A DNA stretch of 64,000 bases from Candidatus Limnocylindrales bacterium. GTDB lineage: Bacteria > Moduliflexota > Moduliflexia > Moduliflexales > JAUQPW01. The notes beneath the pieces are model-generated. The model made no database searches and was not told the origin of the DNA. It was given only the letters and a program-made list of their open reading frames with translations. The DNA is taken from contig DATMBG010000052.1 in NCBI GenBank assembly GCA_035559535.1, positions 1 to 64,000 of the forward strand. The letters are read 5' to 3'. Position numbers and translations under genes: made by a program. The first letter of the stretch is position 1. Each line of letters opens with the position of its first letter. Shown here one piece after another: positions 10,041-61,409 of this stretch.

Positions 10041-10147
10041 TGGGAGGGGATAGGAGTATGGGAATAGGGGCGACCGGCCGGTCGCCCGTATCAGGAAGTA
10101 AGGGTGACCGGCCGATCACCTCTACTCCCATACTCCTATACTTCCAT
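10041..10147. repeat. Octamer inverted repeat (locus A) with nested GACCGGCCGGTC palindromes
   Basis: Purine-rich arm at 10041-10070 (GGGAGGGGATAGGAGTATGG) and pyrimidine-rich arm at 10121-10147 (CTCCCATACTCCTATACTTCC) enclose two palindromes, GGGCGACCGGCCGGTCGCCC at 10068-10087 and GGGTGACCGGCCGATCACC at 10102-10120. It fills the gap between meaB and the upstream acyl-CoA dehydrogenase gene. Confidence 0.75.
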
Positions 10148-57918: not shown

Positions 57919-58357
57919 GGTTTTTATTCTAAGCTGAACGTTTTAGGGTTTCAATACTTATTTCCGGCATAATTTTCTGAAAAAAAGGTTTCCTGCTTGA
58001 CAACAATCAGGAGATATTTCTACAATAACTCCAGGTATAAGGAGAATATTAAGATTAGCCACAAAGGCATAAAGATATACAGGATCGGTCAATTTTCTTA
58101 TTTTTAATGATCCCTTCTGTCTGTGTGCCTTTGTGGCTAATTAGTTTTATATCTGCTTATAGCCCAGAACGTCCCTGATAGAAAGTAGGAGCGTAGGGGC
58201 GTAAGGCCTTACGCCCCTACAAGAACAGGAAAGTTCCTGAGAACTTCGGTGTTACAAGCCTGACAGAAAAAGGATAACAACAGGAGTGGGTACTGAGTAG
58301 TGGGTAAAGAATCTTTGGGTGTTATGGCTCAGTACTTGGTATCCCTCTTTTTTAAGC
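57919..58357. other. Intergenic region rich in repeats upstream of MetE-like gene
   Basis: 439 bases, no gene. ATTAGCCACAAAGGCA at 58054-58069 is the exact complement of 58126-58141, a 16-bp inverted repeat with a 56-base spacer. The 28-bp palindrome at 58193-58220 follows, then imperfect TACTGAGTA / CTCAGTACT copies around 58288-58335, like those at 15.7 kb. Confidence 0.6.
58193..58220. repeat. 28-bp perfect palindrome, fixed-end family
   Basis: GTAGGGGCGTAAGG followed by its exact complement CCTTACGCCCCTAC. Same ends and length as the copies at 15714, 18960 and 59643 but a different core. Confidence 0.87.
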
Positions 58358-59395: not shown

Positions 59396-59685
59396 GAGCG
59401 AATAGCAGGTTAACCGTCCCGGACAGTAGGTTAACCGTCCCGGTTGACATAAGAGAAGCTATGCTCTCTATAGTTCTCAGAAGTAATCTTTCTTTATTCA
59501 GCCTGGACTGGTAAGCATGGCTTTACCGGTTCAGATCCCGAACTATGCAAAAAATGAGCATACCCGAAAACTGTAGCGTAGGCAGGCTGAGGATGAAGTT
59601 TTTTGTCTTAAACCTTGTTTCTTTATCTATATTTTAACCGAGGTAGGGGCGATCGGCCGGTCGCCCCTACCGGGGAACCTATAAA
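59396..59685. other. Intergenic region upstream of csx20-like gene, with short tandem repeats
   Basis: 290 bases. About 21-bp steps of AGCAGGTTAA.../AGTAGGTTAACCGTCCCGG repeat at 59385-59443, with AGGTTAACCGTCCCGG exact at 59407-59422 and 59428-59443. The fixed-end palindrome follows at 59643. No CRISPR-like regular spacing. Confidence 0.6.
59643..59670. repeat. 28-bp palindrome, fixed-end family
   Basis: GTAGGGGCGATCGG faces CCGGTCGCCCCTAC with one mismatched pair. Its GACCGGCCGGTC-type core is the same as in the two palindromes inside octamer locus A. It ends 16 bases before the csx20-like ATG. Confidence 0.85.
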
Positions 59686-60078
59686 ATGCCCAAAATGTTA
59701 CTTCTCTTTTCCCATGAATTAACCCAGGACCAAATCAAAGATGCCAGGGCTACTTTAAACATCACCGAATTTGTCCCCCTGTCTGTGGATCTGGAAGGTC
59801 TCTGGAAGAATATTCCCCCCACCAAACCTTCGTTAAGTGAGTATCTGGAACCCCTTCGTAGATGGATGAAAGGGCATGCAGAGCCTGGAGATTATGTATT
59901 GATCCAGGGTGATTTTGGGGCCGTCTATTTAATGGTTAATTTTGCCTTTTCTGCTGGTTTAATTCCTGTTTATTCCACCACCGAACGGGAAGTGGTGGAG
60001 AAGGCCTTGCCGGATAACACGGTGAGATCGGAACGGGTGTTCCGGCATAGGATGTTTAGAAGATATGAAAAGGAGTGA
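59686..60078 (+). CDS. csx20: Csx20-family CRISPR-associated protein, predicted ring nuclease
   Basis: A 130-residue protein. The pattern LLLFSHELTQDQ...GDYVLIQGDFGAVYLMV...GLIPVYSTTEREVVE with FRHRMFRRYE at the end matches the Csx20 family as I know it. Csx20 is one of the small families proposed as ring nucleases that degrade the cyclic oligoadenylate messengers made by type III CRISPR Cas10. It lies five bases ahead of a CARF-HEPN effector gene, the arrangement expected for a messenger-quencher and its target. No cas10, csm, cmr, cas1/2 or array is in the window. Family call from memory; function is inferred. Confidence 0.72.
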   Translation: MPKMLLLFSHELTQDQIKDARATLNITEFVPLSVDLEGLWKNIPPTKPSLSEYLEPLRRWMKGHAEPGDYVLIQGDFGAVYLMVNFAFSAGLIPVYSTTEREVVEKALPDNTVRSERVFRHRMFRRYEKE

Positions 60079-60083
60079 GTCCA

Positions 60084-61409
60084 ATGAGTCAAGTCATGCT
60101 TGCCTTTTTAGGAACCAACGATTACTTACCTTGTAACTATTTGCTGAATGAGAAAGGGAAGATCAGTGGAGTGCGATTTATTCAGGAAGCTCTGGTTTCT
60201 TTATTCTGCAAAGATTGGACGGAAAAGGATAGGATTATTATTTTTCTGACTGAAGAGGCTAAAAATAAAAACTGGGTGGATAATGGTCATAAGGATAGGG
60301 ACGGTAAACCTCTGCAGAGAGAAGGATTAAAAAGAAGATTAGAATCTTTAGGGTTAAAGACTAAAATTCTTGACAAAGAAATTCCGGATGGGCGAACGGA
60401 AGAGGAGATTTGGAGAATTTTTGATGAGGTTCTTAATCAAATAGATCATGGGGATGAAGTAATATTTGATATGACCCATGCTTTCCGTTCTCTCCCTATG
60501 CTTGCCATCATCATATTGAACTATGCAAAGGTCATAAAGAATATCAAAATAAATGGAGTTTACTACGGTGCCTTTGAATCCTTAGGCAGTATTCGCGAAG
60601 TGGAAAAAATGGCAGTCCAGGATCGTAACGTTCCAATTTTCAATCTTACCCCCTTTGTTCGTCTTTTCGATTGGACGAATGCCATACATAATTTTATTAC
60701 GTATGGGGACGCTAAAGATATCAGTGAGCTGACTCAACAAGAAATAAAATCTATTCTGGCAGATACACAAGGAAAAGACGAGGGCGCACAAAACCTCCGG
60801 GAACTGAGTAAACAACTAAAGAAGCTCACCAAATTAATTCAGACAAGTCGAGGACCTGGTCTCATCGATGGATTTGATTTTGACGGCTTAAGAGAACTGA
60901 TAAAAAAAGAAGGATTCTTAAAACCGATAAATCCTTTACTCGATAAAATAGCGAATAAAATTAAAGATTTTAAAAATAAAGATATTAAAAACGGATATGC
61001 TGCGGTTGAATGGTGTATTCAACACAATTTAATACCACAGGGTTATACTCTACTTCAAGAGACGATGATTAGCGAGGTTGTCGTAAGACATTTTGGTCAG
61101 AGCGAAATTCTCAATGAAGACAAAAGGAAACTTGCTGCTCAGGCTCTCCATATTGCAAATAGAAACATTATTGCAAATAGAAAAATTCCTGAAGAGGAAT
61201 GGGAAGAGCCAGCTAAAAGTAGAAAAGAAGACGTTCAAAAAATTATAAGTTGCCTGAGCGAGGATTTTATTAAGATATATGACTCGATAACGCAAGATAG
61301 AAATGATATAAACCATGCCGGGTTCAGAACTCAACCCTCTCAACCCGAGGACTTACAGGAGAGATTAAAGGAAAGATATTACAAGAACTTGAAAAAAGGT
61401 TTGGCCTAG
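60084..61409 (+). CDS. csx2: Csx1/Csx2-family (TM1812-type) CARF-HEPN ribonuclease
   Basis: A 441-residue effector. The N-terminal half is a CARF domain of the TM1812/Csx2 type: MLAFLGTNDYLPCNYLL at the start, IFLTEEAKNKNW, and the hallmark DMTHAFRSLPMLAIIILNY with GVYYGAFE. The C-terminal half is helical and ends in a HEPN active site, Arg406-x4-His411 (RNDINH). Such proteins bind cyclic oligoadenylate through CARF and then cut RNA. AAAAGGAG lies nine bases before the ATG at 60084. The base composition is more A-rich than in the neighbours, which suggests transfer. The csx20-like gene just upstream would limit its activity. Confidence 0.88.
   Translation: MSQVMLAFLGTNDYLPCNYLLNEKGKISGVRFIQEALVSLFCKDWTEKDRIIIFLTEEAKNKNWVDNGHKDRDGKPLQREGLKRRLESLGLKTKILDKEIPDGRTEEEIWRIFDEVLNQIDHGDEVIFDMTHAFRSLPMLAIIILNYAKVIKNIKINGVYYGAFESLGSIREVEKMAVQDRNVPIFNLTPFVRLFDWTNAIHNFITYGDAKDISELTQQEIKSILADTQGKDEGAQNLRELSKQLKKLTKLIQTSRGPGLIDGFDFDGLRELIKKEGFLKPINPLLDKIANKIKDFKNKDIKNGYAAVEWCIQHNLIPQGYTLLQETMISEVVVRHFGQSEILNEDKRKLAAQALHIANRNIIANRKIPEEEWEEPAKSRKEDVQKIISCLSEDFIKIYDSITQDRNDINHAGFRTQPSQPEDLQERLKERYYKNLKKGLA

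Follow-up and report, generated by a model that had tools for sequence, protein, structure and literature searches.

The csx20-csx1 gene pair near the end of the window, by which is meant the whole 64,000-nucleotide stretch of contig C52 analysed here, is very probably a type III CRISPR accessory cassette that is encoded apart from the cas genes it serves and works in trans. Most likely, the displaced pair answers to the Cas10d protein encoded on another contig (C27) of the same draft MAG (95.8% complete, 4.1% contamination). This reading draws on the III-D locus with an intact Cas10 in the assembly, on the arrangement in a sister species and on a genome search that found no SMODS-type cyclase. 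The pair consists of the following features.

59686..60078, plus strand: csx20, gene of the ring nuclease family, 130 aa (NF040559 and PADLOC matches, conserved columns, AF2 model)
60070..60075, plus strand: AAGGAG, likely ribosome-binding site (Shine-Dalgarno) of csx1, within the 3' end of csx20 (read from the sequence)
60084..61409 from ATG, plus strand: gene of a csx1/csx2 (TM1812 type) CARF-HEPN ribonuclease, 441 aa (TIGR02221, PADLOC, invariant columns, AF2 model)

The 130-aa protein belongs to the Csx20 ring nuclease family, and cleavage of cA4 is predicted for it from the family. It is a full-length Csx20 by NCBIfam NF040559 (E 5.6e-47; score 159 bits, cut-off 70 bits; residues 4-127 aligned to model positions 1-124) and matches the PADLOC Csx20 model at E 1.7e-47. 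In an alignment of 40 homologues, the invariant residues H10, D69, Q74, G75, D76, R101, F119 and H121 are all retained. The AF2 model (pLDDT 96.3) finds the Crn1 ring nucleases Sso2081 and Sis0455 as its top PDB matches, and this structural similarity, which would fit a CARF-like Rossmann fold akin to that of Crn1, is weak (E about 0.02-0.04, probability 0.94-0.97, TM below 0.4). Pfam alone matched neither Csx20 nor Csx1, and a sequence search of the PDB with the two proteins returned nothing significant. The Csx20 family is a cA4-specific ring nuclease, as demonstrated biochemically for a representative; no other ring nuclease is as common in type III loci, and its association with Csx1 is particularly strong (PMC12409355).

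The second gene encodes a CARF-HEPN effector of the Csx1/Csx2 type, for which cA4-activated RNase activity is predicted. The protein matches TIGR02221 (E 7.5e-31; score 108 bits, cut-off 76 bits), with the DxTHG domain also matched, and the PADLOC CARF2 CARF_HEPN model at E 1.4e-121; in the PADLOC CARF_HEPN_CSX20 fusion model (PDLC01843), Csx20 and Csx1 each match their respective part. The CARF motif DMTHAFRS occupies residues 129-136, and D129, T131, H132, F134 and R135 are invariant in homologues. The HEPN motif RNDINH (406-411) is intact, N407 and H411 being invariant and R406 shared by 90% or more of the 15 homologues compared, which bears out the intact RxxxxH (Arg406, His411) read in the original prediction. 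The AF2 model (pLDDT 89.6) has the cA4-bound Marinitoga Csx1-Crn2 structure 8y7g as its top PDB match (E 6.1e-16). Genome-wide searches found this Csx1 as the only TM1812-type CARF-HEPN and the 130-aa protein as the only Csx20.

The five-base spacing between the Csx20-like gene and the CARF-HEPN gene, also part of the original prediction, holds with the ATG start at 60084, and an alternative GTG start at 60075 would make the two genes overlap. Because AAGGAG at 60070-60075 lies inside the end of csx20, it suggests that csx20 and csx1 are translationally coupled. The proposed two-gene unit of a messenger degrader and a messenger-activated RNase was thus right in its family identities, and the activities of the two proteins are predicted ones.

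The pair sits between methionine-synthase-like and geranylgeranyl-reductase-like genes, at a site that is the same in the sister species, and it does not lie in or beside a type III locus on C52. Profile searches for Cas10, RAMP and Cas1 and a search for arrays gave no match on the whole 85.7-kb contig. A type III locus just past the window edge was considered and rejected, as the remaining 21.7 kb of C52 likewise hold no Cas10, RAMP or Cas1 match and no array. Counting against the displaced-accessory reading, the pair has no physical linkage to III-D: at least 24 kb separate it from the end of its own contig, and the III-D and I-B genes described below are about 7 kb or more from the end of theirs.

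The difference in composition from the neighbouring genes claimed at the outset is true of csx1, the GC content of which (0.373) is lower than in every 1.3-kb segment sampled (mean 0.454, sd 0.024), but not of csx20, which is average for the region (0.459). A palindrome is located upstream of the pair.

59643..59670, no strand assigned: near-perfect palindrome of 28 nt, GTAGGGGCGATCGGCCGGTCGCCCCTAC, copy of a dispersed genomic repeat with a hairpin fold, not specific to the pair

Other copies occur in the window at 58193-58220 and, with 3 mismatches, at 10064-10091; more are found at 43445-45844 of C27 and at 85522 of C52, near the contig end. The consensus of this family is GTAGGGGCG-NNN-GGCC-NNN-CGCCC(C/G)TAC, and its copies cluster at the end of C27, after a cas2-like gene. 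The palindrome suspected of mobility is real, but a mobile element is not supported, since the palindrome is a dispersed repeat and the sister species has the pair in the same position.

Elsewhere in the same genome, profile searches revealed a Cas10 with an intact cyclase motif.

C27:15091-16764: Cas10d with FGGDDV intact
C27:13830-15086: Can2/Card1-like CARF-PDDEXK effector, beside Cas10d
C27:43688: Cas1

The type III-D locus on C27 is complete, comprising Cas10d, Csx10, Csx19, several Cas7 proteins and the Can2/Card1-like effector, and it is adjoined by type I-B Cas8b, Cas7b, Cas5b and Cas3. An array was looked for next to Cas1 on C27 and none was found; contig C16 carries at its edge a CRISPR array with a 37-nt repeat and at least 18 repeats, which was found by pattern. 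It is unlikely that C27 is a contaminant or a binning error, since the sister genome has both the site of the pair and an orthologous III-D locus. The orphan status first assigned to the pair accordingly stands for the whole of C52, where neither cas genes nor an array were found, but not for the genome, which has III-D on C27 and an array on C16. The small protein does match Csx20, and the III-D locus lies on a different contig, not directly past the window edge. Of the signal sources first suggested for the pair, a distant type III locus is the one supported, by the Cas10d with intact GGDD on C27 and again in the sister species.

The original prediction also allowed for another nucleotide cyclase feeding csx20-csx1 as a self-contained toxin-antidote-like device. 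The pair is indeed isolated locally, on an 85.7-kb contig lacking cas genes, and there are reports of orphan Csx15 genes and of Sulfolobales strains that have csx1 and ring nucleases but lack a type III system (PMC13148439; PMC7694759). However, a search of the genome for SMODS CD-NTases found none, and no cyclase gene adjoins the pair. A genome search for the Cas10 palm returned Cas10d and one further protein, which was rejected as an alternative cyclase for being an ordinary GGDEF-EAL protein. Together with the intact Cas10 in the genome and Cas10d in all three phylum relatives, these results make a device of this kind highly improbable.

The distribution of Csx20 in other genomes also speaks against a device independent of Cas10. 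In a scan covering 84,980 species, 67 Csx20 loci were detected, including loci from archaea, Desulfobacterota, Campylobacterota, Firmicutes and Bacteroidota. In 38 of the 54 loci from other genomes with a judgeable neighbourhood, a CARF-HEPN gene lies within 2.5 kb of csx20 (in one case fused to it), and 19 of those 38 show the order of the window, with CARF-HEPN no more than 100 bp downstream of csx20. By whole-genome profile searches, Cas10 is present in roughly 42 of 50 Csx20 genomes (25 were recognised by the Cas10d profile and about 17 others, convincingly, by that of Csm1), and the genomes lacking a Cas10 match are mostly fragmentary small-contig MAGs. The same pair thus recurs in other genomes.

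Several individual Csx20 loci were noted. A Tepidimicrobium MAG (L061:8669-10372) encodes a natural single-chain CARF-HEPN-Csx20 fusion (PADLOC fusion model E 2e-170). In a Clostridiales MAG, Csx20 (L081:10001-10405) stands beside type I-B-like genes, and neither a CARF-HEPN match nor a GGDD protein was found within 10 kb of it. Csx20 has already been reported in a few phage genomes (PMC12409355). UTV61253.1 of Fusobacterium phage JD-Fnp4, annotated as hypothetical (L030:6001-6366), matches the PADLOC Csx20 model at E 3.9e-15 and is a candidate phage ring nuclease. A strong Csx20 match (E 7.7e-53) in IMGVR_UViG_3300026382_000071 (L101:6001-6381) is a candidate viral ring nuclease; this IMG/VR contig also has a lysozyme-like frame, and its Csx20 has no CARF-HEPN neighbour.

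Within the phylum, the window genome was compared with the genomes of three relatives, the Cas10d carriers mentioned above. The sister species of the same genus (G001) has csx20 and a remnant of csx1 at the same site and with the same neighbours as in the window, and its III-D locus resembles that of C27 (Cas10 90% and Can2 83% identical). A 688-bp out-of-frame deletion took the CARF domain of its csx1 and left csx20 intact. What remains of csx1 is an open frame that begins inside the end of csx20.

L017:8386-9021 (G001:C78), minus strand: csx1 remnant, open HEPN-only frame of 211 aa with RNDINH intact

A search for another CARF-HEPN of this family in the sister genome found none. The lack of the CARF domain in its Csx1 indicates that the effector half is dispensable in the genus, and the loss of the sensor domain with retention of Csx20 suggests that Csx20 is useful by itself to the III-D/Can2 pathway, serving that system independently of Csx1. 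In another relative (G003), Csx20 stands not with Csx1 but directly ahead of Can2-like and Cas10d genes in a III-D operon, and the CARF-HEPN is on a separate contig near Cas1-like and Cas2-like genes (read from translations only).

These observations lead to a refinement of the displaced-accessory reading, in which Csx20 is the maintained part, serving III-D/Can2 in trans, and Csx1 is optional and being lost in the genus. The pairwise dN/dS of csx20 between the two species (0.21) favours it, as does the finding that Can1-2 effectors have no ring-nuclease activity of their own and that a ring nuclease accompanies them in 66% of loci (PMC12409355). However, Csx1 of the window genome has its full length and retains every catalytic residue, and both genes look functional there. 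Moreover, the HEPN part of csx1 has a dN/dS of 0.23, so that the deletion in the sister species may be recent, or may be an assembly fault, or the remnant may still be constrained. The refinement is tentative, somewhat short of an even chance. A further-reaching picture, in which a cA4 regulator and its effector, both acting in trans, are stably displaced in a Moduliflexota genus, with the ring nuclease outliving the effector, and in which the HEPN-only frame of the sister species could act free of cA4 control, seems rather unlikely.

The same comparison bears on whether csx20-csx1 could be a non-functional relic of a former type III locus broken up by rearrangement. Low GC in csx1 alone, the truncated sister copy and the failure to find a promoter-like site upstream of the pair would fit such a relic, but neither frame is interrupted and every motif is intact, csx20 shows the low dN/dS given above, and the gene order and the likely internal Shine-Dalgarno sequence are preserved. 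Decay of this kind is thus unlikely.

For the displaced accessory acting in trans, the following pathway is the most likely one, in which the choice of cA4 as messenger and the activities of Csx20 and Csx1 come from knowledge of the families, and we infer that the pair responds to the C27 Cas10 specifically. The III-D complex encoded on C27 would bind foreign RNA, upon which Cas10, with its intact GGDD, would make cyclic tetra-adenylate. Binding of cA4 to the CARF domain of a Csx1 dimer would switch on the HEPN RNase, and the same cA4 would also activate the Can2/Card1-like effector whose gene adjoins that of Cas10. Csx20 would hydrolyse cA4 and so reset or dampen both effectors. Surveys limited to a few kb around type III loci miss ring nuclease-effector pairs encoded elsewhere, and in the sister species nature provides a test of what a ring nuclease is retained for, its neighbour or the cA4 pathway as a whole.

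The pair itself is well known, its chemistry and pairing being established, and it is unusual only in its location away from a type III locus. Csx20 and Csx1 as described by Hoikkala et al. (2025; PMC12409355) are the same two families, strongly paired and expected to use the same messenger; however, that survey was confined to 6 kb around type III loci, whereas the pair of the window lies outside such a region, on another contig. The csx20-csx2 pair of the Persicobacter psychrovividus plasmid pPP6 has a gene order identical to that of the window, although the pPP6 genes overlap, and the proteins are 41% (Csx20) and 42% (CARF-HEPN) identical. It ends a complete III-D-like operon that includes a TIGR03986 Cas7 and a Cas10-like protein bearing GGDD, whereas the pair of the window stands apart. 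Marinitoga Csx1-Crn2 (8y7g, 8y6z) and the CARF-HEPN-Csx20 fusion (PDLC01843; L061) likewise combine a CARF-HEPN RNase with a cA4 ring nuclease, but as one polypeptide where the window has two, and the ring-nuclease fold of Crn2 in the Marinitoga fusion differs from that of Csx20.
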